Part shown: positions 8,117-62,000 of the stretch, one piece after another
Layout: each line of letters starts with the position of its first letter
Position numbering within the stretch: position 1 is the stretch's first letter
NCBI GenBank assembly: GCA_023143095.1
Contig: JAGLIF010000011.1
Location: forward strand, 62,001-126,000
Length of the DNA: 64,000 nucleotides
Reading direction: 5' to 3'
Origin: Candidatus Altimarinota bacterium
GTDB taxonomy: Bacteria > Patescibacteriota > Gracilibacteria > UBA4473
Program-made: the position numbers and the translations under genes
Notes under the pieces: generated by a model
Told to the model about the DNA's origin: nothing
What the model saw: the letters and a program-made list of their open reading frames with translations, nothing else
Database searches by the model: none

Positions 8117-11100
8117 ATGGGGAAAAAGTTGTTTTGTTTTCATGTGGTAAAAAAGAAGATTGCTTTAATGCTTGTTTTTTCCATTATTTTTCAATATTTA
8201 CAAATTCCTCTTTTACATGCAGCACAATTTATAAATAGTGAGTCTATACCAGAAATAAAAAATACACGGTTAGTCGCTTTGTTGGTAGAGGATTCTCTTT
8301 TAAAAAACGGTAGTTTAAAAGAAAAAATATATCAATATGCCGAGGATGTTCAGAAACGAATAGGTGCACAAGGGATATTGGTTCCAATTAGCAAGGAAAT
8401 TTCTCCTTTGGAGATTTATGAAGGATTGGCACAGTTGTATTTTTCTGGAGAGGCAAATGATGGTAAATCTCAATTAATTGGAACTGTGCTTATTGGAGAT
8501 ATTCCCTTGCCAGTAGTGGAAAAAGATGGAAATTTTTGGCCAACGATTTTTCCTTATACGGATTTTAAAAATCCAATTTATCGGTGGGATTTTAAGAAAG
8601 ATCGTTTTATTGTAGCAAAATACGGAGATAATGAACCTGAAATTTGGCATGGGGTTATTCGTTCTACTAAGACAAGTTTAGATCAACAAATAACAGAATT
8701 AGAAACTTTTTTTGATAATAATCATCGTGTTCATTTGGGAGAAGAAACTTATTCGAAAAAACTTTTTTATGCTGATTTTTTTCGGCAAAAGAATGTATTA
8801 CCAGAGCTTTTGTTTTTTAAATATAATCAATGGTTGAAGTATGTTGAAGAACTTCAATATCTTCGATATTCTAAACATCTGGCAAAACAATTACGGACAG
8901 ATCAAGATGAAAGGGGATCAACTCTTTCTATTTCTAATAATTTAACAGAAAGTGAAAAGGTGGCGATTGCGGAATCAGCAGCTGAACAAAATTCTTCAGT
9001 TAGTGTTGAAGATGTTTTAGCATCTATGAATACTGATTCAATGGACTTGATTCCAGATGTTCAGTCTAAATTTTTGATTGATAACTTTGTAAATCGTTAT
9101 TTTGAAACTTATAAGTCTTGGTTGACTTTATTGAATCAAAGAGTTTCTAAATCAGGTCGTTGGAAAGCTAATGAAATTGATACAACTCCTTCTTTGGTTT
9201 CAAGAAAAGATGAGGCTTCGTTGTTGGTATTGAAATCCTATAATGATGCGATAGAGGAACGCTTTATAAAACATATAACAGAAGAGCAAAATATTCAAAG
9301 TAGTATTTTGGTTCCAAAAAACACATTTGTTTGTAGATCAATTGATGAAGATTCGAACGAATGTGATTCCTATATTTTAAAAGAGCTTTATTGGAATGGG
9401 GTTGATCGTTCAGATCTTAATGTTATGGATTGTTCTATTTACAGAGGAAAACGAAGAACTGAAGATTATCCGTTTTCCCAACAGGTGGAAGCGAATAGAA
9501 CTTTTAATATTGAGACAGTAGAGTCTTGTGCACATCCTAGTGAAATGATAAGTATTCGTGAATCAGATGTATATGAAGGTTGTTGTGCTAAAAATTTAAA
9601 ATTTTCCGATAATACTTTTTCTTACAATGTCTGTGAGCCAACAACTTCTTATTGGAATGATGTTTTTGTTTATGGAAATGGAAAATATCTTCATGTTGGA
9701 CCAGAATTACCAGTTTTTGATATCACTGGGACAATAGAAAAAGATGGTCCGTATGGAGCTTACGGTTGTAATGATATAATGGTGGAAGATTTTAATTTTA
9801 GAGGTGTTTTTACTGATGGAGTGACACCTGTATTGGAATCAGATCCACTTGGTATTATGGTGATGTTAGATGAAGAAGGATTACCAATTGCTTATCCAGA
9901 GGATTTAGTTAATCAGAATGTAGATATTACAACTCGTTTTCAAATAGTTCCATCTTTAGTTGTTCATAATGAACCGACAGTGGAAACAATTCAAGAGCAA
10001 GTGGCGGCTGGATTTTCTGTTTCCATGCCGATGGATGCTCCCAGAGGTTTTTCTTTTTATGATGCGGGGGGTATTTTTAGAAAGGGATTTTTTACTAATA
10101 TTTTTGATTATAGAGAAACAGCGTTATCGGAGGTAGCCTTGAAGTCTTCTGTAGAGACGGCGATTATAGATTCTGTTGATAATGTTAATAATAGTATAAA
10201 AGAGGGAAATATTATTGCTATGGGAAAGTTAATGTCTGACTTGAATAATGTGACTTTTGATATTTCTCGGACACGAGTAGAAAGGATTGCAGAATCGACT
10301 GATCTGGCTAGATTGGATATTACTACGAGTTTTAATGAGGCAACTATTGATATACAAGAAGCTATTTTAAACGCTAAAAATTTAGTTGATAAAGATATTG
10401 AAACTGGTGATGTTACAGAGGAGTTTATTGCGGCAAAAACAGAAACAATTAACAAATTAGATGCTTCAGAGTTGTTGATTAATGAAGCGATTGAAGTACA
10501 AAAAGAATCTATTTCACAGGAAATTGTTGATACTAAAATAGAATTTTTAAATGAAGTTGAGGGAGAAAAAGATAACTTTTTGCAAGAATCTACGGTACAG
10601 AATGGAAGGTTTACTAGTATCATTCTTGATACGGAAAATCCAGAAAGTACAAAAGTTAAAATAGAATCAGAATTTCAAGTTATTCAAGATATAAAAGAGG
10701 ATTTTGATGATTCTTTAGGAGTAGCTGTTGAAGTTTATTTTCAAGAGTTGAAAGAGCATCTTCCCCTTATGAATACGAATTTGGGAGTGTTAAACGGATC
10801 TCTTAATGAAATATTGCAAACAGAAAGTCAGAATTTCAAAGTGAAGCTTGATGAAGTGAATGTCAATGGACATAATGTAGTTTTTGAGTCGACGAATGAT
10901 GATTTGTCAGTAATTTTTAGAAATTTGAATAGTTCATTTAAGAATACATTAAACATTCTAAATGATGCTTTAAAGGTAGATTTAGATGAGACAAATATTA
11001 ATTTAAATATATTGCTTAATGAAATGAGAGGTTCTTTAAATGGAACACTTAATGCGATTATTTCTACTTTGAATTTAAATTTAACAGGAATTATTTATGA

Positions 11101-14100
11101 TTTAAATTTAAGCTTGATCGAGCAAACAGATGGGCTTGAACGAATGCTTGATGAATCTGATTTTGTTTTTGAAAAAAGGTTTTTGTCTTATTTAAATGAA
11201 TCAGTGCTTACTTTCTTACAGGGTATATTTGAAAGTGCTATAAGTAGAGTTGATGCAGGATCTTCAATAGAGGAGAAAGAAGTATTAATAGATGCGTTGG
11301 AGGTACAAGTTGAGAAGATAAATAATTTTTTAATCTTAAAAAGTTCATTAGAAGATCTTAGTTTAACAGAGACTGCTGAAGTGGTTGAGATAATAGAACA
11401 GATTGAAACATTAGGAGCACATCTTTCCAATTTGCGAGTAAAAGTACTCGAAATAAAATATTTGAATACGGCTGAAAACGAAGATCTTCGAGAATTGACG
11501 ATAACTGAATTGGAGAACACAGTATCGGTGTTGAATGATGATTTATCAACTTTGATTTTAGTGTTAAAGAATGAAATAGAGGCTTTAATTGTGGCACTTC
11601 ATAATTCTTTGAATACGGGTATTCTTGCTCATTATTCAGATATGGATGAGGTGGGAATTGTAAATCAAAAACAAAATGTATCTCAGTTAATTTCTACTTC
11701 GGAGCAAACTATTTCAGAAGAAATTAATGATGGAAATGATTTATTAGATGAAGAGATTGATTCTATAAAAACGCAAGTGAATTTAGAAATAGATTCTATT
11801 GATTTGATTATAACGGCTATAAATGAAAATATTTTGGTATATGAAAGTTGTGTTGCTTGTAGGCCTCAAGCATTGGCAAATATTGAAGATCTTCTTTTTT
11901 CTTTGTATGGGAATACTAATAGTAAAAAAGTAGATTTATTTTATGATTTGGATTCAGGGGAATTGGAATTGCATCAAAGTAACGATGATTTGCAAGAAAC
12001 TTTGGAATTACATTTTGATCAATCTTTGGTTAATTTTAATACTGGATTGGATGTGGTAGAAACTGATTTACATTTACGATTAGAAAACGCAAAACAAGAT
12101 TTTAATTCTCGTTTAGAAACAGATGGAAGGGTTTCTCTTTCCAATAGATTAGATAAAGGATTGACAGATTTAATTGCTCAATTGACATCTGGAGACGAGG
12201 ATTTGGGGATACAGATCAATACTTCATTAGAAGACTTGCTTGGGTTGTTGCAAGATCAGTTATATTTTCATTATTTGAATTTTGTTTCAAAATTTGATGA
12301 AATCAATGAAATTCAAACTATTATTGATAATTGGAATGGCGGATTTGGTGATGGATATGATTATTTAGAATTAGATGTCTATTTATCAGGTCCGAAAGAA
12401 TTAATTTTCTTTATGGAGTGGCAAAAAGAGAGTGTGGAAAGTGAAAATAGAAAGTCGAAAAGTAATTATTATAATTTAGCAGAATTTATTGATTCAAGTC
12501 TTCTTATAAAGAGTTCAGACAACTTTGATTTTTCTGAGATAAAAGAGGCTTTAGATTGGATTGATAAGGATATTGAAGAAAAAAATAGAATTGTTTTTGA
12601 AACTGCTTTTTCTGAAAAAGAAAATGTAAAAGATTTCTTTTTTGATGACCTTTCCGATGGTTATGAGTTGATAGAAATTATTGCAGAAGGCGATAAGAAA
12701 AAAGGTATTAAGATGGCGTTTTTGCCTACAAGTTTAATGGTAGATAAAGAGTTTGCAGACGCGAAAAAACGATTTTCTGGTTTTTCTTTTGAGCAAGATT
12801 CTTATCAATTTCAATTTTTAGGAGAAAATCTAGGAGATACTTTTCTAGAAAGGGAAGAAGAAGAAACCTGTGATAAGCTTTCTGGTTCTATGGAAACTTG
12901 GCCGGAATTTCTTGCTTGTGTATTATCAAAAACTCTTGCAGGGAAGACTACAGATGTAAATATGCCAGGGCTTGGAAAAAAAGAAGCAGGTTCTCCAATT
13001 ATTGAAAATAAAGAGGTTGATCTTATTGATTCAGTTTTATCTATAGAGCCAAAAGAGATATTTATTTCAAATTATAATACGGATTTAATAAATGTAAAAG
13101 TAGTTCTTAAAAATTCAGCTGGAGAAATTCAAACAGATAATTTTTCAACGAGAGTGCAGTTGGTTTTTTCTAGCTCTGATGCCAGCCGTTTCTTTAAAAT
13201 TTCTCCCGCACAAACCATTCCGTTTACAGCAGGAGAAGCTAATTTCCTTCTTATTCCTCAAACTGATAAGTTTGGTGGAGCATTAGAATTATTTGCACAA
13301 ATAGAAGGTGAGGAAAATTTTTCTCTTGTTTCAAAATCGATTCCGATTAAAATTACAAATTTTGCTATTGATGGTTATTCTGAAAAGAAAGAAATTACTG
13401 TTAATGATAATAAAGGTGTCTTAATTAAAGCGAGAATAAAAAATAATACTGGTAACTTAAGTTCTAAATTTGAAGGGACAAAGGTTCAATTTATTTCAGA
13501 AGAGGGAAGTTTTATGGGGGGGGAAGATATCGTTGAAATTGAAGATGGGGTAGCTAAAGCTCTGTTTTTTCCTGGGAAAAAAGCAGGATTAGCCAAAATA
13601 ACTATCATTGATTTAGAAAAAAATATTCCAAGTGATGAAGTGTTTTTAGAAATATTACCAGATTCTCCTGCAACGATAAAAATACAAAAAAAATCGAACT
13701 TTCTTATAGAAGGAGTATTTGATGATATTTCGGCTATTATTACAGATGAATTTGGAAATAGCATCGAAAATATTTCACATAAATTTTCTTGGGAATATGA
13801 AAATCTTAATGTTGAAGCAGAATCTGAAAGAGATCAAGATCCTCAAGAAGAAGGTATTCAAGAGTTTATTTATAAGGGAAAGTCATTACTAAAAGTTGTT
13901 GCAGAAAAAAAAGTAAATACTGCTCAGATAGGAGTCTCTTCTGATTTATTTGAATCAGGTTTTGGGATAGTCCGAAATTTTGAAATAATAAAAAATCCTA
14001 TTTTTGAAATATCGGCGAAGAAAAATTCTATAGTTGCTGGAGAAGCAAATTCTATCGAAATTTTTATAACTGCAAAAACAAAAAGTGGAGACTTAATTTC

Positions 14101-17100
14101 CGATGATTTTTTAGTTTATATTTCTTCAAACTTAGGACATTTTCCTAAAAGTTTGTTGTTGAAAGATGGGATTGGGTCTTTCAAATTTTTCCCAGGGATT
14201 GTTGCGAATACGGCTAATATAATGGTTTCTAGTGTTGGATTTGAAACAAAAGAATTTGAAATAAATATCCTTCCAGATGAGCCTAAAAAAATAAATTTTT
14301 CTGTTTCAGAAGAAATTTATTCTTCTCAAGGGGATGATCCTGTTCTTATAGATATTATGGTGGTAGATAGATTTGGAAATTTAACAAAAAGATTTGAAGA
14401 GAATATTGAAGTAACAATAACAAATGATACAAAACATCTTTTAGAAATAACTTCAGCAAGTACTTTAAATGGAGGATCTCAAATGCTTTCGTCTCAAGAA
14501 ATAGAGACAGGCGGATTGCTTTCTAACATATCTTTAGAAAATGGAAAAACTACGGTAACGGTTGTTCCTAAAGGATTATCAGGAATGGCACATCTAATAG
14601 TTGATAATAGTTCACTAGTAGGTGATACTTTGGAAATAGAATTCACTGATTTTTTTACACCAGAAGATGTAAAATCACTTACACCGAAATCACTTTTTGC
14701 TTTAATTCTCGGTTTCGAAGCAGGTGATCTTTTAGCTGAAAATAATTTTGCTCTCAATTTCTTATTTGCAGGAAAAACACAAAGTGTTGGAACTCTTATA
14801 ACTGATCCGAATCCATTTTTTCAATTTGGTTCCATTTCTCCAACGGGAGAATTTTATGGAAAGCTGAAAACAAAGTTTAATTTTAAAAATTTTCCTGAAG
14901 TGTTTTTTCAATATAAAGATGAAAATTTATTACAATCTCGAATTCTTTTTTCGAAATCGCCTGAAATTTTTATAGATGAAACAGAAATTGAAGATGCTGG
15001 AATTTATTTTATTCCTGAAAAATTTTTGGCATCGGATATAGCTTTTGAAGATCGAGTTATTTATTATAAGGAGTTACCTCTTTTTGAGATATCAAAACAA
15101 GGAGGGATAGAATTAAAAGATAGTCTTATTGTTTTTGAACAAGCAAAAGATTTTAAAAATATTTTACAATGGAATATTTTGAAAGATGATAAACTCTTGG
15201 GAGTGCTTCGTTTTAATCCAGAGGAAGAAAGTCTTATTGCAAAAGACTCATTGTTTGCAGAGAATTATTCTGGAATATCAATAAAGAAAATTTCTCCTGA
15301 TATTTTGTTTGATGATAATTTTATAGAAAATTCGACAAATAAAAGAAGAGGGATAAGTTTTTTTGATCGGACTAGAAAAGAATCAAAAAACGGAAAATTG
15401 GGAAGCCCAAAAAGTTCGGCAGAAAATGCATTAGATACAGAAGAAGTTACCTGGGACTTTAATTGGAAACCAGGAACAATCTTTGGAGCTAAAAATACAA
15501 TAGGGGATTCTGCTAAATTTGGAGCTAGTGATATTTTTATTCTTTTTGGAGATCCAACTCTTTCTGTCCAAACTGAAAATGAGAATGTCTCACTTGGAAT
15601 AAAAAAAGATATAGGGAAACCTATTTGGAAAGCTCCATTTGGAGTAATTGATCAAATTTTGTCAATGGATATCAATGGAGATGGGCAAAAAGATATTTTA
15701 ATACGAATTGAAAACGAACTTGTGGCACTTTATCAAGAAAAAGGTACTTCTATGAATTTTCGTGATGTAGGAAACATTTTTAATTTTAATGGAGGTGTAA
15801 GACAATTAGAAATACTTAATAAAAATATTAAAAATGAAGTAAGTAATACTACTTTAAATGGATTGCTTCAGCTAACTTTTGATGGAAAGTTTGTTCTGTT
15901 TGAGAATAAAAATGGAGTCTTTTTCGAAAAAATGATTCCATTTGAGCATTCATTGCCTATAACGAATTTTCATACGGCGATATTAAATGATGACATTTAT
16001 CAAGATCTTGTCTTTTTAGATGAAGATAATAGTCTTTGGCTTCTTTTTGGGGAAGCGGATGGTTTTTCTCCTAATCCTGTTTTTCTCCAAAATTTTTCAC
16101 CAAAGTTTGATTCTGTGGATGAAGTTTTTGATGGAACGATTACGGAAACATCTGAAGGATTTTTAAAATATCTAAATTCAACTTTGATCAATTTTGAGGG
16201 GATGAATGATTTTGATCAAAAGGCGCTGAAATTTTCAATTCCAAATGATGATTCACAAAATGCAGAAATAGAAATTGATGATATTGAGAGTGCTATCTGG
16301 GGTGATTTAGAATCATTGAAGAATCTTGAAAAAGATTTTTTACCAGTAACAAATCATACTTTTTTAGATGCCTCTTATTCAATGGTCTCCCAAAATCAGA
16401 ATGTAAAACTAGGAGATGAAATAACTGTTGTTTTTACGTTTAAATCAAATGAAAAATTAGAAAATTTTGAATTTATGCCACCAACAGATCCAAGGTTGAA
16501 ATTGAAAGAGAATTCTTTTACTTGTTTGGGATGTATTCAAACACCTGCATTTAGATCACAACATCCATTCGGAGAGTTTTGGGCATTTGATTTTGATGTG
16601 CCAGCACGAACAACGGTGACTTTTTCTTGGAAATTAGTCGTAAAGGAAACGCCTCAAATTCAATTTTTTGTTGGAGATTTCGAAGATGGAAGAGATAATC
16701 TATCAGATATTGTTATTCCTTGGGAGATTGATGGAAAACGAAAATTAATTAAATTTTTATCTTCTCAGAAACTATCTTCATATCAGAGAAAAAATTGGTT
16801 GGTTTCAACAAATCCAGTTGTACTTAGTCCTGATGAAGCTGTCAAAGAAGCTCAGGATATATATGAAATAGCAAAAAAATATAAATCAATTTATCCTATT
16901 CCAAAAGTAGTTGATGCTCAGTCGGATTCCAATGTTGCGATAAAGATGAAGGATTTTTTAAGTGTGGAAAATCAACAAGAAATGTTTAAGGATCTATTAG
17001 TTCAAGATAGTGATATGGATGGATTTCCTGATTCATATGATACATATCCTCAAACAAAAGATATCTCTTCACTTGGAGCAGTAGAGACCATTATGGCAGG

Positions 17101-20100
17101 ATTATTGTTTTCTGTAATTGGAGAAAGTCTCTACGAATTGGAAAACAAAAAATTAAGCTTTTTTTGTGGGGGAGGGGATTGTTTCAATTTTCCAGTTTCC
17201 ATTGCTTTTTTTGCTCCAGGTTTAGCAAGTCTTTATATTCCACCGATTACGATTCCTATCGGATTTTCATTTGGATTTCCTATTCTGCAATGGTTAACGA
17301 CTTTATGGGTTGGTCCAATTCCAGTTCCTTCAATGTGGCCAATAAGTCCACTTGGTCTTGCTGGAGTAGATAATCCAACGCTTGGATTTGGAGGAATTTA
17401 TCCTTCTTCTGGGCGAATTTATTTAATGCCAACAACAACAGGAAAAGTAGGAATTGCTTTTTGTATGGGTTTATATGGAACTTCAATGATTCCGCCATTG
17501 TGGCTTCCAAATTGTTTTGTGGCAATACCCCCTATTGATGCTTTCATGGGTTTTTGTCCGAAAGAAGCAGAATCGGATAATTCACTTCTGGGTGCGGCTA
17601 CAGCAATTGCTTTAACAAATTCCGGAGGAATTTTTAATGTATCACCAAGGGGGAAAGTTGGAATGACATTAGGAGCTTTTACCGCCAAAGTAGAAGCAAC
17701 GGATAATATTCAAATTCCTGGTGTAGATATTATAGCTACTTGGTGGCAAGAGCAGGAAAGGGCTTTTTCAAAAGGTCTTCAGTTACCAACACTTTCATTT
17801 ATTGGACCTAACTTAGATTCACTAGAAGTAACTGAACCAGCAGAGGAGACACCACAAGGAGGTGCTTTGGAAAAATTGAGTGCGGAAGCTTCAAAATATC
17901 CTTTTATTGATTTAAAAACAGCAAAAGTATCGATTCCTATCCCCAATATTTCGATTGCAGAGTTGGATCAATTAGATCTAGAAATGGAAGAATGGATGGC
18001 TGAGTTAAAAGGATCTATTGATTTAAGCTTACCAGATTTAACTGCTCTAAAAGCTTCAATTGAAAAGATAAAAACAAAAATTGAAAATTTAACACTTTCA
18101 CTTGATGCCTTTTATAAACTTCCAGATTATATAGCTTTGCTTGATGCTTATCATAAACTTAAAGGTTATATAACATCAATAGAAGCGAAAATAAAAAAAT
18201 TAAAAGAGGATTATCAAAAAAATTGTAAAGTTGATTTATCTGAAGTACGAAAAATTTCCGTTCCAAAAAATATTGAACTTGATACAAAGTATAAAATTAA
18301 TGATTCAAATGAAAAAGATTCTTGTTCATTTGCACTGGAAGGCATGTTGGAAAGTGAAGCCTTTTTGGCAAGTTTAAATAGTTTATATAATCAAATTTCG
18401 GATTTTATCTCAAAAATTGAACTTATTGAATCTTTTAAAAACAAGCTAGATTCTTTGATTTCATCAGTAGAATCATTAATTGAAGATATAAAAAATATAA
18501 CAATTGATACGGAAGCCATTATGACTTCCGTAGAAACAAATATTGATACAGTTAAAGAATACAAGGATTTTGATGTTGAAAAATTAATAAATTTTAGGAG
18601 AGAAATTGTTGAAAAACTGTCGGAAATCATGGCCTTTATGCAAACTATTCAAGATTTTTTTATAGGATGGTTTGCTGAAAATAATTTGCGAATAGAAGAG
18701 TGGAAAAATATGGATTTAATAATTGATCAAATTCTGCTATCATGGCAAATAATACCACAGATTTTTATTGATTTTGATTCAAATTGTCGAACTTGCGTGG
18801 TGGATCGAGGTACACTTCTTTCTTGGCTTTTAAAAATATTTTTAGGGGCTATTGATCTTCCAATTATAGAACTTCCTAAATTTCCAGATATAACGGTTGA
18901 TTTATCGAAAGTTTCTTTTGGATTAAATGCCACTATTCCAGATTTTGAAACAAAAGAAATAGATATGAAGCTTTTTGAACTTCCCGATATAGAACTTCCA
19001 GATTTAAGTTTTTTGGAAGATTTGAATTTGGAAGTTGCTTTTGAATCTGTTTTGGAAATTGATTTTGAATCTATTTTTGATCTTGCTTTAGGACTTGATT
19101 TAAGTGCTTTAATTTCAGAACTTAATTTGGAAGAATTAGATTTCCCAAGTTTTGATGCTAGTGGTAATTTTTCTGGAGTTGGAATGCAAACTCTTCCGAC
19201 TTTACCACTCTTAAATTTACCAGTTATACCAACTTTTCCACTGCCAGCATTGGCTCTGCCTCAAATACCTAAAATACCAGCAATCCCGCTCTTACCAAAG
19301 ATACCAGATATAACATTGACGATACCTTTTCCTTCTCTGCCAATTCCACAGTTGCCTATGGTGCCACCACCACCCCAATTGCCAGATCTTTTAGGTTCAT
19401 TGCTTGCTGTTTTAGAATTGCCGTTGGAATTCATTAATATATTTTGTCTTTTGCGATTGGGGATTCTGCCAGTTCCAGAGTGGTATGTTAAACCTTATGT
19501 GGAACAACTAACAAACCGATTTGCACTTTCTCTAGGATTAGATTTTGGATTTCTTTCTTTGCCTAAAATAGATTTTGGAACAAAAGAAATGAAAATTCTT
19601 GGATCTATTGGATTTATGACGGCATTAGATCCATTGATGGAAATTGCCAATGGTCTTTCTAAAACTTTTAAGAATGTAATTGATCAAATTTCTACTGTTG
19701 GAAATATAAAAATAGATGCTTTATCAATACCTTCTGATTTAGGATTAGATATTAAATCTAATCTAGGATTAGATAAGTTGAAAAATATAGAACTTCCTAC
19801 CATTAAGAGTCCAAGAAAGAATGTTTTGCCAGTACCCTCTGATATAAAATTAAATATTCAATCTCGGCTTTTTGATAAATTGAAAGGTATTTCTGAATTT
19901 AAGGATTGGTATGCAAATTTTAAAAAAGAAATAGAAATGAGTAAAGATAAGTATTCTGATCCTTATGATTTGGTGCTAAAAATGCAACAACGAGCTCGAA
20001 AATTGGTAGCCATTACTCCAACTCAAAAGAAATTAAAACAATCTATTTTAGCGATAAAAGTGCCTAGTAAAAATAATGATAAATTGTGGAGAGAAGATTT

Positions 20101-21499
20101 GAAAAGACAATTTGCACAACAGATTCAAGATTTCTCTAGTGTAAAAACTAAAATTGAAAAAGAAAATAAAGTACTGGTAAAATATCAAGATTTGTCGGTT
20201 CGTGACTTTTTTGCTCAAGCAGAAATACAAAGTATTTTTCAAAAACCAGATCGATATTTAGCAGGAATAGAAAAGGATTCTTTTGATAATTTAGAAATAA
20301 CTTTTCCTCAAGATATTTTAAAATCAATGGTATTTCCTTCTGTATTAAAAACAGATGGTCCTCCTGATCTAGCAGATAATGATTTACTAGATTTATCTGA
20401 GGTGAATGAAATTTCAACTGTGGAAGATATTCAACCTGATGCACCAGAAGGAGTTTTCTTTAAAGATAATTCTTTAAAAATGATAGTGAAAATTACGGAA
20501 TTTCCAATAGGAGGTTTATCAGCACAAGCTTTAGTTGATCTTGATGGAGATGGTGTAGAAGAAATCCTTTTTTCCAGCAATGGAGAACTCTATCTTAAAA
20601 ATCGTGTACAGAAATCGTTATCTACTACACCAAATTATAATGTTAAAACTTGGTCACAAAAAGAATTTGAATCCATTATTTTACCAGCATTTAGTGTCTC
20701 TTCTGAGAGATATGGTGAAAGACGAGGTATCCGATTTGAAAGATTTAAAGAAGAAATATCTTATTTTGAGTGGGTGGTAGCAGATAGACCAGATGTTATT
20801 TTTGAAATATCTCAAAATCCAGATTCACGATCTTCCAAAATATGGGATAGGCATGCTTTTCTTTCTCAAGGGACATTACAGCAATATGAAATTAGTCCTT
20901 TTTCAGCAAAAATTATAAGTGTTTCTGGAATACCGAAAATGACTAGACCTAATTTTCAAAAAATTGAAGAGGTTGGTGATTGTGATCCAAGATTTTCAGA
21001 ACAACATTTTTTTGAAACTCAAACAACTGTTTTAGGAATAGCTGATCGTTCTCGTTTAGAAATACAGGTGCCTGCAAGAAGAAATAAACCATCAGAATAT
21101 CAAGAAATGGTTATAAGGAAAAACGAAAAGACTTTTATTGAATATGGTAATATTTGTGTTTCAAATGGAGCAATAGCGGTTATTACAGATACAGAAAAAA
21201 CAGAAGAAATAATTCCCGCAGAAGATGATTTTATACCTATAGGATCTTCTTTTGAGTTAGCCGAAAATGATAAAATTGAAATAGAATTATTTGATGGTTC
21301 AAATATTACTATCTTTGGAGGAGAACGATATTTCTTACATGATTTTGATTTTAATGAAAAATTTATTGATGATTTTGAGTTTTTAAAATCACAAAATTTA
21401 TATGGATTTTTATTTGGAATTAACGAAAATGGAAGAAGTGCTGTCTTTTCAAAGTTACTTCATATGTTGGTTCCAACTACAATTTCTGAAAAACCATGA
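8117..21499 (+). CDS. Giant secreted mosaic surface protein (4460 aa)
   Basis: It has a signal peptide at residues 1-36 (hydrophobic core ALMLVFSIIFQYL, cut near LLHAA). Residues 48-250 resemble a gingipain/caspase-like (C25-type) fold, with VLIGDIPLPVV, a PTIFPYTDF segment and EIWHGVIRS. A Cys-rich stretch follows at about 395-560. Residues 670-1405 are long amphipathic helices, including an Asn/Leu-rich tract at about 885-1000. From 1635 to about 2230 come several invasin-like Ig domains. An FG-GAP/VCBS-type calcium loop, DINGDGQKD, lies near 2517, a thrombospondin-3-like DSDMDGFPDSYD near 2965, a hydrophobic Gly/Pro segment with Cys at 3015-3150, more helices at 3160-3560, a Pro-rich rod at 3690-3762 and a second calcium loop, DLDGDGVEE, near 4141. 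No sorting signal is seen at the C-terminus. Its stop overlaps the next start (ATGA). A TATAAT at 8038-8043 is a possible -10. Inferred role: adhesion or a cell-surface apparatus. Confidence 0.82.
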   Translation: MGKKLFCFHVVKKKIALMLVFSIIFQYLQIPLLHAAQFINSESIPEIKNTRLVALLVEDSLLKNGSLKEKIYQYAEDVQKRIGAQGILVPISKEISPLEIYEGLAQLYFSGEANDGKSQLIGTVLIGDIPLPVVEKDGNFWPTIFPYTDFKNPIYRWDFKKDRFIVAKYGDNEPEIWHGVIRSTKTSLDQQITELETFFDNNHRVHLGEETYSKKLFYADFFRQKNVLPELLFFKYNQWLKYVEELQYLRYSKHLAKQLRTDQDERGSTLSISNNLTESEKVAIAESAAEQNSSVSVEDVLASMNTDSMDLIPDVQSKFLIDNFVNRYFETYKSWLTLLNQRVSKSGRWKANEIDTTPSLVSRKDEASLLVLKSYNDAIEERFIKHITEEQNIQSSILVPKNTFVCRSIDEDSNECDSYILKELYWNGVDRSDLNVMDCSIYRGKRRTEDYPFSQQVEANRTFNIETVESCAHPSEMISIRESDVYEGCCAKNLKFSDNTFSYNVCEPTTSYWNDVFVYGNGKYLHVGPELPVFDITGTIEKDGPYGAYGCNDIMVEDFNFRGVFTDGVTPVLESDPLGIMVMLDEEGLPIAYPEDLVNQNVDITTRFQIVPSLVVHNEPTVETIQEQVAAGFSVSMPMDAPRGFSFYDAGGIFRKGFFTNIFDYRETALSEVALKSSVETAIIDSVDNVNNSIKEGNIIAMGKLMSDLNNVTFDISRTRVERIAESTDLARLDITTSFNEATIDIQEAILNAKNLVDKDIETGDVTEEFIAAKTETINKLDASELLINEAIEVQKESISQEIVDTKIEFLNEVEGEKDNFLQESTVQNGRFTSIILDTENPESTKVKIESEFQVIQDIKEDFDDSLGVAVEVYFQELKEHLPLMNTNLGVLNGSLNEILQTESQNFKVKLDEVNVNGHNVVFESTNDDLSVIFRNLNSSFKNTLNILNDALKVDLDETNINLNILLNEMRGSLNGTLNAIISTLNLNLTGIIYDLNLSLIEQTDGLERMLDESDFVFEKRFLSYLNESVLTFLQGIFESAISRVDAGSSIEEKEVLIDALEVQVEKINNFLILKSSLEDLSLTETAEVVEIIEQIETLGAHLSNLRVKVLEIKYLNTAENEDLRELTITELENTVSVLNDDLSTLILVLKNEIEALIVALHNSLNTGILAHYSDMDEVGIVNQKQNVSQLISTSEQTISEEINDGNDLLDEEIDSIKTQVNLEIDSIDLIITAINENILVYESCVACRPQALANIEDLLFSLYGNTNSKKVDLFYDLDSGELELHQSNDDLQETLELHFDQSLVNFNTGLDVVETDLHLRLENAKQDFNSRLETDGRVSLSNRLDKGLTDLIAQLTSGDEDLGIQINTSLEDLLGLLQDQLYFHYLNFVSKFDEINEIQTIIDNWNGGFGDGYDYLELDVYLSGPKELIFFMEWQKESVESENRKSKSNYYNLAEFIDSSLLIKSSDNFDFSEIKEALDWIDKDIEEKNRIVFETAFSEKENVKDFFFDDLSDGYELIEIIAEGDKKKGIKMAFLPTSLMVDKEFADAKKRFSGFSFEQDSYQFQFLGENLGDTFLEREEEETCDKLSGSMETWPEFLACVLSKTLAGKTTDVNMPGLGKKEAGSPIIENKEVDLIDSVLSIEPKEIFISNYNTDLINVKVVLKNSAGEIQTDNFSTRVQLVFSSSDASRFFKISPAQTIPFTAGEANFLLIPQTDKFGGALELFAQIEGEENFSLVSKSIPIKITNFAIDGYSEKKEITVNDNKGVLIKARIKNNTGNLSSKFEGTKVQFISEEGSFMGGEDIVEIEDGVAKALFFPGKKAGLAKITIIDLEKNIPSDEVFLEILPDSPATIKIQKKSNFLIEGVFDDISAIITDEFGNSIENISHKFSWEYENLNVEAESERDQDPQEEGIQEFIYKGKSLLKVVAEKKVNTAQIGVSSDLFESGFGIVRNFEIIKNPIFEISAKKNSIVAGEANSIEIFITAKTKSGDLISDDFLVYISSNLGHFPKSLLLKDGIGSFKFFPGIVANTANIMVSSVGFETKEFEINILPDEPKKINFSVSEEIYSSQGDDPVLIDIMVVDRFGNLTKRFEENIEVTITNDTKHLLEITSASTLNGGSQMLSSQEIETGGLLSNISLENGKTTVTVVPKGLSGMAHLIVDNSSLVGDTLEIEFTDFFTPEDVKSLTPKSLFALILGFEAGDLLAENNFALNFLFAGKTQSVGTLITDPNPFFQFGSISPTGEFYGKLKTKFNFKNFPEVFFQYKDENLLQSRILFSKSPEIFIDETEIEDAGIYFIPEKFLASDIAFEDRVIYYKELPLFEISKQGGIELKDSLIVFEQAKDFKNILQWNILKDDKLLGVLRFNPEEESLIAKDSLFAENYSGISIKKISPDILFDDNFIENSTNKRRGISFFDRTRKESKNGKLGSPKSSAENALDTEEVTWDFNWKPGTIFGAKNTIGDSAKFGASDIFILFGDPTLSVQTENENVSLGIKKDIGKPIWKAPFGVIDQILSMDINGDGQKDILIRIENELVALYQEKGTSMNFRDVGNIFNFNGGVRQLEILNKNIKNEVSNTTLNGLLQLTFDGKFVLFENKNGVFFEKMIPFEHSLPITNFHTAILNDDIYQDLVFLDEDNSLWLLFGEADGFSPNPVFLQNFSPKFDSVDEVFDGTITETSEGFLKYLNSTLINFEGMNDFDQKALKFSIPNDDSQNAEIEIDDIESAIWGDLESLKNLEKDFLPVTNHTFLDASYSMVSQNQNVKLGDEITVVFTFKSNEKLENFEFMPPTDPRLKLKENSFTCLGCIQTPAFRSQHPFGEFWAFDFDVPARTTVTFSWKLVVKETPQIQFFVGDFEDGRDNLSDIVIPWEIDGKRKLIKFLSSQKLSSYQRKNWLVSTNPVVLSPDEAVKEAQDIYEIAKKYKSIYPIPKVVDAQSDSNVAIKMKDFLSVENQQEMFKDLLVQDSDMDGFPDSYDTYPQTKDISSLGAVETIMAGLLFSVIGESLYELENKKLSFFCGGGDCFNFPVSIAFFAPGLASLYIPPITIPIGFSFGFPILQWLTTLWVGPIPVPSMWPISPLGLAGVDNPTLGFGGIYPSSGRIYLMPTTTGKVGIAFCMGLYGTSMIPPLWLPNCFVAIPPIDAFMGFCPKEAESDNSLLGAATAIALTNSGGIFNVSPRGKVGMTLGAFTAKVEATDNIQIPGVDIIATWWQEQERAFSKGLQLPTLSFIGPNLDSLEVTEPAEETPQGGALEKLSAEASKYPFIDLKTAKVSIPIPNISIAELDQLDLEMEEWMAELKGSIDLSLPDLTALKASIEKIKTKIENLTLSLDAFYKLPDYIALLDAYHKLKGYITSIEAKIKKLKEDYQKNCKVDLSEVRKISVPKNIELDTKYKINDSNEKDSCSFALEGMLESEAFLASLNSLYNQISDFISKIELIESFKNKLDSLISSVESLIEDIKNITIDTEAIMTSVETNIDTVKEYKDFDVEKLINFRREIVEKLSEIMAFMQTIQDFFIGWFAENNLRIEEWKNMDLIIDQILLSWQIIPQIFIDFDSNCRTCVVDRGTLLSWLLKIFLGAIDLPIIELPKFPDITVDLSKVSFGLNATIPDFETKEIDMKLFELPDIELPDLSFLEDLNLEVAFESVLEIDFESIFDLALGLDLSALISELNLEELDFPSFDASGNFSGVGMQTLPTLPLLNLPVIPTFPLPALALPQIPKIPAIPLLPKIPDITLTIPFPSLPIPQLPMVPPPPQLPDLLGSLLAVLELPLEFINIFCLLRLGILPVPEWYVKPYVEQLTNRFALSLGLDFGFLSLPKIDFGTKEMKILGSIGFMTALDPLMEIANGLSKTFKNVIDQISTVGNIKIDALSIPSDLGLDIKSNLGLDKLKNIELPTIKSPRKNVLPVPSDIKLNIQSRLFDKLKGISEFKDWYANFKKEIEMSKDKYSDPYDLVLKMQQRARKLVAITPTQKKLKQSILAIKVPSKNNDKLWREDLKRQFAQQIQDFSSVKTKIEKENKVLVKYQDLSVRDFFAQAEIQSIFQKPDRYLAGIEKDSFDNLEITFPQDILKSMVFPSVLKTDGPPDLADNDLLDLSEVNEISTVEDIQPDAPEGVFFKDNSLKMIVKITEFPIGGLSAQALVDLDGDGVEEILFSSNGELYLKNRVQKSLSTTPNYNVKTWSQKEFESIILPAFSVSSERYGERRGIRFERFKEEISYFEWVVADRPDVIFEISQNPDSRSSKIWDRHAFLSQGTLQQYEISPFSAKIISVSGIPKMTRPNFQKIEEVGDCDPRFSEQHFFETQTTVLGIADRSRLEIQVPARRNKPSEYQEMVIRKNEKTFIEYGNICVSNGAIAVITDTEKTEEIIPAEDDFIPIGSSFELAENDKIEIELFDGSNITIFGGERYFLHDFDFNEKFIDDFEFLKSQNLYGFLFGINENGRSAVFSKLLHMLVPTTISEKP

Positions 21500-56235: not shown

Positions 56236-56278
56236 AAAAAGAGCAGGCAACTAGTAATAAATTACTAGCTACCCACTC
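56236..56278 (-). terminator. Strong terminator of the small foreign-looking gene
   Basis: A 17-bp stem (56278-56262 with 56257-56241, with G-U pairs) and a 4-nt loop is followed on the minus strand by TTTTT. Its length and GC content exceed those of other terminators in the window. Confidence 0.9.
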
Positions 56279-56306
56279 ATGTTAGCTCCTTGCGGTTTGG
56301 ACAATT

Positions 56307-56627
56307 CTAACGACAGACTTTAATTTTCTTGACCCAATAGCCAAGAAAGTTGCCGTCTGTGTCATACGCTGCTGTTCTTTTCTTTTTCCAGTAACAGCGT
56401 ACAACTGTTTCATGGCGATGACGAGGTGGAGATCTTACCACCACGACTTCCCTCACCACTCGTTGTTGAGGAGGAGTGAAAACGCTTTTCGCCATAGAGA
56501 GAGTGAAAAGACCGGCAGCAACTATACCTATGTCTTTCAATGTATCGTTACGCCAGTCGCCCGCTACTGCCGTTGTTCCTGTAAACAAGAACATCAGCAC
56601 GATAACTATCACCAGAAACTTTTTCAA
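56307..56627 (-). CDS. Small exported protein with foreign expression signals (106 aa)
   Basis: I set the start at TTG 56627 because a canonical AAGGAGGTG (56642-56634) lies 8 nt upstream. An open frame from ATG 56651 would put that Shine-Dalgarno site inside the gene. The protein is MKKFLVIVIVLMFLFTGTTA (signal peptide), then a short mature part with a hydrophobic stretch, TLKDIGIVAAGLFTLSM, a PPQQRVVREVVVV segment, RHRHE and a basic C-terminus with two cysteines (VRCYWKK, KVCR). The family is unknown. Its GC content is clearly higher than that of adjacent genes and it is the only gene here with a classic Shine-Dalgarno site, so horizontal origin is likely. Confidence 0.75.
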   Translation of the reverse strand: MKKFLVIVIVLMFLFTGTTAVAGDWRNDTLKDIGIVAAGLFTLSMAKSVFTPPQQRVVREVVVVRSPPRHRHETVVRCYWKKKRTAAYDTDGNFLGYWVKKIKVCR

Positions 56628-56821
56628 AAAAATCACCTCCTTTTTGACCAAAATTTTTTTAGAAATTTTGTATTCCCTTCGTAGTCTATGAAAGGAAGAA
56701 TGTTAATCAAAGGCAAACCGTGTCTCCGCAATAAAAGCAGAGGATTTCAAGGAGCTACGATTTGGAAGTTTAGTTGAGTAAGATTTCTCTTCTCTACTAT
56801 AACTATCCAAAACGCGTTAAA

Positions 56822-56850
56822 AGAATACCTCATTTTGGGTATTCTGTCAA
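56822..56850 (-). promoter_or_regulatory. Consensus promoter with overlapping operator palindrome
   Basis: On the minus strand TTGACA (56850-56845), a 17-bp spacer and TATTCT (56827-56822). The palindrome AGAATACC (56822-56829)/GGTATTCT (56838-56845) covers the spacer and the -10, as a repressor site would. It probably drives the 106-residue gene through a leader of about 190 nt. No gene is seen in 56628-56899. Confidence 0.7.
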
Positions 56851-56899
56851 GCACTACTCCCCTTCTCTTTTTATATAAATTTATTTTTTCGATAGGAAA

Positions 56900-59310: not shown

Positions 59311-59318
59311 GTTTGGAA

Positions 59319-59726
59319 ATGATCAGTAAAAATAGAGAAGATTATTTGAGAGCTATTTACTGTATAAACGAACAAAAAGAAGGAACAGTTCGTTCGATTG
59401 AGATTGTTAAATACTTAAAGATTTCAAAACCAGCCATTTCAGTGATGCTAAAGAAATTAAAGCAGCAAAAATATATAAAAATGGAACCTTATTTGGGAAT
59501 CTCGTTTACGAATAAGGGTTTTAAGGAAGCACAAAAATTAACATACAAGCATAGAATAAGTGAATTATTTTTGAGAGATGTCTTGAATATTGATGGAAAA
59601 GATATTCATGAAGAAGCACATAAGCTTGAACATGCACTCTCGGATAAAGTTGTTAAAAAAATGGCGAATTTTTTGGACAATCCGAATGTTTGTCCATGCG
59701 GACATAAAATACCTAATATTATATAA
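59319..59726 (+). CDS. DtxR/MntR-family metal-dependent repressor
   Basis: 135 residues from ATG 59319; a TTG two codons earlier (59313) is also possible. The N-terminal winged helix is EDYLRAIYCINEQKEGTVRS, then ISKPAISVMLKKLKQQKYI. The dimerisation and metal-binding region carries HEEAHKLEHALSDKVV and the C-terminal CPCGHKIP typical of the family. There is no SH3-like third domain. It is the first gene before feoA and feoB, so it should repress iron uptake when Fe2+ is high. The operator sits only 9 bp before the ATG. Confidence 0.92.
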   Translation: MISKNREDYLRAIYCINEQKEGTVRSIEIVKYLKISKPAISVMLKKLKQQKYIKMEPYLGISFTNKGFKEAQKLTYKHRISELFLRDVLNIDGKDIHEEAHKLEHALSDKVVKKMANFLDNPNVCPCGHKIPNII

Positions 59727-59731
59727 ATAAT

Positions 59732-59962
59732 ATGAATCAAAAATTGTTATCTCAATTTGAAAAAGGAGAAAATATTAAAATTTTAAGTGTTAGTTGCGGA
59801 AGAGAATTTGCTAGAAGACTTTGTGCTTTAGGTTTATTTGAAGGAACTGAAATAAAAATTATTAAAAATGACAAGAGTTGTCCAATCATTGTACAAATTT
59901 TAAATTCTAGAATCGCTCTTGGACAAGGTGAGGCTAATAAAATCTATGGAGAAAAAATCTAA
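59732..59962 (+). CDS. feoA: Ferrous iron transport protein A
   Basis: 76 residues with an SH3-like fold. The pattern [21 protein letters not shown], followed by a strand ending in [15 protein letters not shown], is standard FeoA. It starts 5 bp after dtxR and overlaps feoB by 17 bases. FeoA is a small cytosolic protein that assists FeoB. Confidence 0.93.
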
Positions 59963-62000
59963 ACTTGTAATCGGACTTACTGGAAATCCAAATACTGGCA
60001 AATCCACTTTATTTAACGCTTTGACTGGTGCAAAACAACACATTGGTAATTGGCCAGGAAAAACTGTAGAAAAAAAAGAAGGAACTATTACTTATAAAAA
60101 CAACAAGATTAAACTTGTTGATTTACCAGGATCATATAGCCTGACTGCTTATACTGAAGAAGAAAGTATTACAACTGATTTTATACTTGAAGAAAAACCT
60201 GACATTGTAATACAAATTTTAGATGCACAAAATCTAGAAAGGAATTTATTTATAACTATTCAGCTTATTGAACTTCAAGCACCATTAGTTTTGGCTTTAA
60301 ATATGGATGATTTAGCAAAAAAAAATGGAATAAATATAGATATTAAAAAACTCTCGACTCTCTTAAATATTCCAGTGGTTATTATCGATGCAAAAAGAAA
60401 GAAAGGTTTTAATAAATTGTTAGAAACTGTTTCCAAATATGCAAAAAACAATAAACGATCAAAAATAAAATTAACTTATGGTACAGAAGTAAATGATGAA
60501 CTCAAAAAATTAAAAAATTTTATTAAGACTAATGAAAAGTCTATTGAACAAAATGATCTAAATTGGATAACTATAAAATTATTGGAGGGAGATTTGAGAG
60601 CTGAACAAAAATTGACTCAAAAACCTTATTATATCGAGTTTAAATTTTTGATAGAAAAAAGTATCGCACATCTTGAAAAGATTTTTAGTAAAAATATTCA
60701 TAGTATTCTAACTCATATACGATATGGTTTTATTAAAGGATTGAGCAGAGAAATAATTACAAAAGATATAACTCGAAAGAATCAAAATATTTCAGATAAA
60801 GTAGATACTTTGCTTATTAATAAATATTTGGGAATCCCAATCTTTTTGGTTCTCATTTGGCTGATGTTTCAAGCTACATTTAGCTTGTCCGAACCATTGA
60901 TGGGATGGATTGAAGTTCTGTTTGGATTTATTGGAGATCAAATTTCAATACTTCTTTCTTCATGGCAGTTTCCCATATGGTCAATTTCTTTGATAGTTGA
61001 TGGAATCATAGGAGGTGTTGGAGGAGTCTTAGTTTTTATACCAATTATAGGTATTTTATTTTTAGTTATGGCTATTCTTGAAGATTCAGGATACATGGCA
61101 AGAGTTGCTTATGTTATGGATAGGTTGATGCATAAAATTGGATTACATGGAAAAGCTTTTATTCCAATGATATTAGGTTTTGGATGCAATGTTCCAGCTA
61201 TTATGGCTACAAGAACCTTGGAAACGAAAAAAGACAGACTTTTAACTATTTTAATCAATCCATTTATATCATGTGGAGCTCGTTTACCTGTATATGTGTT
61301 ATTTGTTGGAGCATTTTTTTCAACTCATCAAGGATGGATAATTTTTTCCTTATATTTCTTGGGGATTGTTATAGCTATTTTTATGGGATTTCTTTTTAAA
61401 AGATTATTTTCAAAAAGCCTATCTTCCCCATTTGTTATTGAACTCCCCCCTTATAGATGGCCTGTTGTAACTGGTCTTTTGATTCATGTTTGGGAAAAAA
61501 TTTGGATTTTTATAAAAAAAGCTGGAACAATTATTTTAGCTTTCTCTATCATTATTTGGGCACTTGCTAGTTTTCCTACAGGAGTAGAATACGGTTCTCA
61601 AGAAAGTTTGGCAGGACAAATGGGAGAAACAATCTCACCTGTATTTGAACCATTGGGGTTTGGCAATTGGCAATCTTCGGTTGCTTTAATATTTGGGTTT
61701 GTTGCTAAAGAAGTTGTTGTAGGAACTTTTGGCACTCTCTATGGAATTGAAGATGTTGAAAGTGATTCAAGTTATTCTTCCTTAACAGATGCCTTGCAAA
61801 ATGATTTCACTCCCTTGTCTGCGTATGCTTTCATGGTGTTTGTTTTGTTATATGTTCCTTGCATGGCTGTCTTGGCAGTAGTTAAAAGAGAAACAAATTC
61901 ATGGAAATGGCCAATATTTATGATTTTCTATACAACAAGTATAGCTTGGATATTAGCATTTGTTGTTTTCCAAGGGGGTAAATTATTAGGTTTTAATTAA
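59946..62000 (+). CDS. feoB: Ferrous iron transporter FeoB
   Basis: 684 residues from ATG 59946. The longer frame from 59919 adds nine residues before the normal N-terminus and is rejected. The G domain has GNPNTGKS (13-20), DLPGSYSL and the NMDD G4 motif. The GDI-like spacer reaches about residue 280. The membrane part has two Gate-type motifs, [15 protein letters not shown] and [14 protein letters not shown], and the [18 protein letters not shown] segment. It imports Fe2+ across the inner membrane. Overlap with feoA shows coupling. Confidence 0.97.

Follow-up and report, generated by a model that had tools for sequence, protein, structure and literature searches.

A published survey of organisms in which Shine-Dalgarno (SD) sites are scarce and the CCUCC core is missing includes members of the Peregrinibacteria and Absconditabacteria (PMC10783764). 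In the Flavobacteriales, a single gene, rpsU, shows exceptional SD pairing, below -13 kcal/mol (PMC9976891). Long-distance 5'-3' pairing and metastable SD-masking hairpins are features of the hok and aapA type I toxin mRNAs, whose full-length RNA is inert (PMC6733600).

Here we describe a block within a 64,000-nucleotide stretch of DNA (the window, to which coordinates refer) from a host of a Candidatus Gracilibacteria lineage, with a genome of 1.2 Mb in 11 contigs; the assignment rests in part on a 16S tail sequence also present in named Gracilibacteria MAGs. One gene with a perfect SD site in a lineage without the anti-SD core offers a natural experiment on whether SD pairing remains functional, and on the fate of an acquired gene whose translation signals are foreign. 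Our preferred reading, to which we give a probability of roughly 0.55, is that the block is a gene imported from outside the family.

Layout of the transcription unit

A preliminary description, made from the sequence alone, had listed a promoter, an operator-like palindrome, an SD site, a TTG start, a signal-peptide ORF and a terminator. All were found, and all on the minus strand (Table 1).

Table 1. Features of the block and other elements. Positions are those of the window unless preceded by a label such as L056.
Feature	Position	Strand	Remarks
Sigma-70-type promoter, TTGACA-N17-TATTCT	56822..56850	-	-35/-10 consensus matches 10/12
Transcription start	near 56815	-	inferred
Perfect palindrome, AGAATACC-CAAAATGA-GGTATTCT (8-nt arms, N8)	56822..56845	-	over spacer and -10
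Leader, 188 nt	56628..56815	-	strongly folded, z -4.3 to -5.3
Leader anti-SD, TAGCTCCTTG	56748..56757	-	predicted to pair with SD or 3'UTR CAAGGAGCTA
SD site, AAAGGAGGTGAT, 12 nt, perfect	56632..56643	-	core in hairpin loop of full-length fold
ORF P0001, TTG start at 56627, 106 aa	56307..56627	-	
3'UTR element, CAAGGAGCTA	56283..56292	-	complement of leader anti-SD; then mini-frame ATG AGT GGG TAG
Intrinsic terminator: 17-bp stem (56278-56241), 4-nt loop, T run	56236..56278	-	
Imperfect terminal inverted repeat, left arm	56236..56255	.	16/20 with 56853-56872; weak evidence
Imperfect terminal inverted repeat, right arm	56853..56872	.	
Dispersed palindromic repeats	L056 9400-10050; L046 13200-13600; L059 300-400; L061 2150-2230; likely window 25362, 36326		

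Taken alone, the promoter ranks no higher than chance, since TTGACA-N16-18-TATNNT was found at 19 listed sites genome-wide and its reversed-pattern control at 13. Palindromes of this size are also not rare in the window (68 perfect examples with 8-nt arms and gaps of 4-12, 17 of them having 3 or more G+C in each arm), yet the one in the block covers the promoter. From that position, it is a putative repressor operator. An operator common to viruses was considered and rejected, as the 16 palindrome matches in viral contigs were close to chance expectation and fell to 0 once the -35 element was included. What is notable is the arrangement of promoter and palindrome together with the SD site, signal peptide and terminator. 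The terminator folded with z -4.65, and its 4 wobble pairs are G-U in the minus-strand RNA only. In the 3'UTR (56269-56292, minus strand), AAGGAG is followed 5 nt on by the mini-frame; the pair may be the remnant of the start of a downstream gene, or may belong to the leader-pairing element.

P0001 comprises a Sec-type signal peptide (approximately residues 1-22), a helix at 30-47, a Pro/Arg/His linker and a C-terminal beta hairpin at 78-105, which is flanked by Cys79 and Cys105. The AlphaFold model, built without an alignment, was confident for this hairpin only. The mature part is basic (~9.7 kDa, pI 10.2). A reasonable guess is a small envelope or surface protein that is exported. A fold search against PDB structures returned nothing at E 0.001 or better.

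Elsewhere in the window, a 4460-aa ORF (8117-21499, plus strand) is very long for a 1.2-Mb genome, and an iron regulator-like gene with Fe_dep_repr domains lies ahead of genes that are probably FeoA and FeoB-like (59313-62000, plus strand).

A perfect SD site in a host without the anti-SD core

The 16S rRNA of most bacteria ends in ...GGATCACCTCCTTT. The 3' end in the host reads ...GCGGATGGAAAATCGCCTCG / GGAAAATCGCCTCG, and the anti-SD core is gone. Among ten 16S tails from the family, the CCTCC core was missing in nine, replaced by CCGCC, TCGCC or CTGCC, and one genome (G010) retained CCTCC in an altered context. In the rest of the class, most members retained CACCTCC. The core, lost in most members of the family, has several different substitutes there (L064 ~1490-1550, 16S 3' end, reverse strand; L080-L087, L089, L117-L135). 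Directly at or after the 16S end, the altered stretch could fold into a small hairpin, for example GCCTC-GTCCA-GAGGC (L064; alignment A1); its pairs were kept in 81% of cells, with covariation weakly above that of shuffles. A separate peculiarity was seen in a class relative, in which a gene for a YibE/F protein contains 37 in-frame TGA codons (L032, G030:C7:398-1306). TGA probably codes for an amino acid in that organism; in the window's own genome it is a stop.

SD usage was determined in a 442-kb sample of the host genome. AGGAGG was found upstream of none of 342 sampled ORFs, and GGAG was depleted, occurring upstream of 0.6% of ORFs compared with 4.2% in random sequence. The G fraction was ~0.08 at positions -15 to -4, and ~0.14 further upstream. 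These data bear out the earlier statement that neighbouring genes lack SD sites. The 11-mer AAGGAGGTGAT occurs once in the host's 1.2 Mb. The other 19 family genomes hold 16 copies, about the chance frequency, and no credible ORF lay behind any of them. The 24-mer spanning the ribosome binding site (RBS) and start had no match in viral contigs.

The 22 nt before the TTG start were predicted to form 12 bp with the altered 16S tail of the host itself, with a duplex energy of -16.6 kcal/mol, and to reach -20.0 kcal/mol with the canonical tail. By comparison, the best of 322 host genes reached -10.3 kcal/mol with the host tail; among 1260 random 22-mers, the strongest duplex was at -13.1 kcal/mol. 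The suggestion that the gene may be poorly expressed here is therefore without support, the pairing being stronger than that of every host gene tested. Host ribosomes may still use the site, with GAGGUGAUUUU pairing to AAAAUCGCCUC in their own tail.

The RBS matches the host tail even in an AAAA found in no other family tail read. A native gene that had adapted would likewise be expected to fit an odd tail in this way. The block would then be a lineage-specific gene, with GC kept high by selection on the RNA fold and with an extended SD site kept as an exception, like that of rpsU in the Flavobacteriales (PMC9976891). The energies above, beyond all 322 genes and 1260 random sequences, favour such a gene, whereas the better fit of the site to the canonical anti-SD than to the host's counts against it. 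On all the evidence, including that given below, we consider a native origin rather unlikely.

Folding of the transcript

Extreme folding of the transcript is a feature that goes beyond the preliminary description. The 580-nt transcript had a predicted folding energy of -211 kcal/mol, with z values of -9.2 to -9.7, and leader, coding region and 3'UTR each gave z of about -5. For 20 host gene segments, the mean z was -0.68 and the minimum -2.58. With the terminator removed, the block ranked 2nd of 1732 windows of the sampled genome. Dispersed palindromic repeats occur in the host genome, such as ATTCCTGCCT.CGCAGGAATGAGG and ATCGTAGATCCCGGATCAAGTCCGGGAAGAC (Table 1). They were rejected as a cause of the folding, being present in top-scoring windows elsewhere, with none seen in the block.

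When synonymous codons were shuffled, keeping protein and codon counts, the ORF gave z of -5.5 to -5.7, and none of 240 shuffles was as stable. The same test gave values from +1.8 to -4.5 for 20 host genes, 23 E. coli genes and lpp. Since E. coli genes also reach strong values, the block is extreme yet still comparable. E. coli lpp was dropped as an analogue of a structured mRNA, its coding sequence being ordinary in this test (z -1.1). On these models, synonymous sites of the coding sequence appear to be under selection for RNA structure. Such selection is uncommon in cellular mRNA, and the prediction that follows from it is concrete and testable. Both the 2nd rank and the synonymous-shuffle values also fit a native gene under selection on the RNA fold.

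G-U pairs in the predicted fold numbered 22 for the minus strand and 9 for the plus strand, in line with selection acting on the minus-strand RNA. This bias, together with strong folding in every segment, would suit a locus whose main product is a large structured or dual-function minus-strand RNA, the ORF being secondary. We regard that interpretation as improbable, given the perfect SD site, well-spaced start, textbook signal peptide and 106 open codons. In addition, GC by codon position fits coding, and no Rfam family matched at the gathering threshold.

The predicted folds also raise the possibility of a switch involving leader anti-SD, SD and 3'UTR. In the leader alone, TAGCTCCTTG masked the SD with a pair probability of 0.67, leaving it unpaired at 0.27. 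In the complete transcript, the leader element paired over 10 nt with CAAGGAGCTA (probability 0.93), and the SD was unpaired at 0.68. The message might then be gated by its own completion, the nascent leader hiding the SD until the finished 3'UTR captures the anti-SD and shows the SD in a hairpin loop. If so, translation would be confined to full-length messages, in a cell where SD sites otherwise go unread by the ribosomes. We treat the switch as a hypothesis, and consider this gated model improbable. The start codon was predicted to be paired in the complete fold (unpaired 0.02), and SD accessibility at intermediate transcript lengths was non-monotonic. The 10-nt leader/3'UTR complement arose in 2 of 2000 shuffles, and was spotted after the fact.

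Composition, homologues and origin

The ORF had a GC content of 0.44 and a GC3 of 0.44-0.45, compared with a GC3 of 0.13-0.31 for the other genes in the window, in agreement with the earlier remark that the neighbours are more AT-rich. Host genes of at least 200 aa had a mean GC3 of 0.236 (sd 0.037). GC at the three codon positions was 0.51/0.40/0.44; the first two values are also raised relative to the host's (0.46/0.33), which argues against a native gene with GC elevated by folding. GC returned to host level within ~40 bp of either end, and the flanks were host-like on both sides. The preliminary description had proposed a check of k-mer composition, and here the block was no outlier, with its trinucleotide distance equalled or exceeded by 174 of 686 windows. 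Part of the GC excess could be attributable to RNA structure constraint in an AT-rich genome.

Sequence searches found no homologue of P0001 in Pfam, NCBIfam or PDB, and its only match in PHROGs was of signal-peptide length (E 0.034). No homologue of the block, as protein or DNA, was found in phages, plasmids, or viral and genome contigs. A search for the closest relatives of the 106-residue protein and for the same block in related genomes, as advised in the preliminary description, likewise gave no homologue among 60 relatives or among 380 genomes of the phylum; weak tblastn-type matches in relatives were rejected, their frames being unrelated or antisense. The block was absent from 19 genomes of the same family, a result that weighs against a native gene, albeit with none of these genomes from the same genus. 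No homologue in a plausible donor was found in these searches, in which the whole genomes sampled were from the phylum.

Import is supported by the GC3, by the lone perfect SD site in a family mostly without the anti-SD core, and by the lack of homologues. The ordinary trinucleotide composition, and the capacity of structural constraint to raise GC in an AT-rich genome, are points against it. With no donor or homologue found, import lacks positive demonstration. Of the earlier proposal that the block was imported whole and recently, import thus gains support, and wholeness agrees with the drop in GC at edges beside promoter and terminator. Recency fares less well, with no donor, empty-site relative or congener among the genomes covered and a GC excess that is perhaps partly structural; donor and recency are unproven.

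Two other origins were considered. At the composition boundaries, the ends of the block are complementary at 16 of 20 positions, a level reached by 0.3-0.7% of matched host segments, as might be seen for a small mobile cassette (a MITE-like passenger) between 20-bp imperfect inverted repeats. The arms are A-rich and of low complexity, however, and were chosen post hoc; no convincing target-site duplication was found at the ends, nor a second copy in the genome. These ends do not establish a mobile element, and we consider a cassette very improbable. Foreign composition over a short stretch could also reflect contaminant DNA joined into the contig by assembly or binning. An assembly join, as raised in the preliminary description, is highly unlikely, because the block is internal to a 131-kb contig with host-like sequence on either side, bin contamination is 0.3%, and two joins would be needed, exactly flanking a complete transcription unit.

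We infer import, operator function, export and use of the SD site by host ribosomes. Under this preferred reading, the gene would be self-contained and monocistronic, and would have come from a donor that has a canonical anti-SD and does not belong to this Gracilibacteria family. Transcription from a vegetative promoter, under control of the palindromic operator, would give a ~580-nt, exceptionally folded mRNA ending at the intrinsic terminator. Its product would be a basic protein, small and exported, whose C-terminal beta hairpin could be closed by a Cys79-Cys105 bond.

Comparison with known systems

The block has the atypical GC, lack of homologues, and own promoter and terminator of horizontally acquired ORFans. 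It differs from them in the extreme mRNA folding encoded in synonymous codons, and in a host lineage without the anti-SD core. That host fits the class of SD-scarce organisms without the CCUCC core (PMC10783764), and the gene of the block is an exception within such a genome.

The hok and aapA mRNAs (PMC6733600) are likewise small, monocistronic and heavily folded, with an anti-SD element and 5'-3' pairing, which in the block is a prediction. The outcome is opposite, as the predicted full-length fold of the block frees the SD. Their product is a small toxic peptide, whereas that of the block has 106 aa, a cleavable signal and a basic mature part (pI 10.2), unlike the small hydrophobic peptide of a type I toxin. 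A consensus scan detected no antisense promoter (plus strand) inside the block from which a hok/aapA-type antitoxin could arise.

Extended SD pairing of rpsU (bS21) in the Flavobacteriales (PMC9976891) is similar in that one gene with exceptionally strong pairing, suited to the host's 16S tail, stands in an SD-less genome. The product of the block is a secreted orphan and not bS21. P0001 matched neither bS21 nor any other Pfam family, so by product it is not a gene of the rpsU type. It has no family orthologue, and autoregulation is without basis here.
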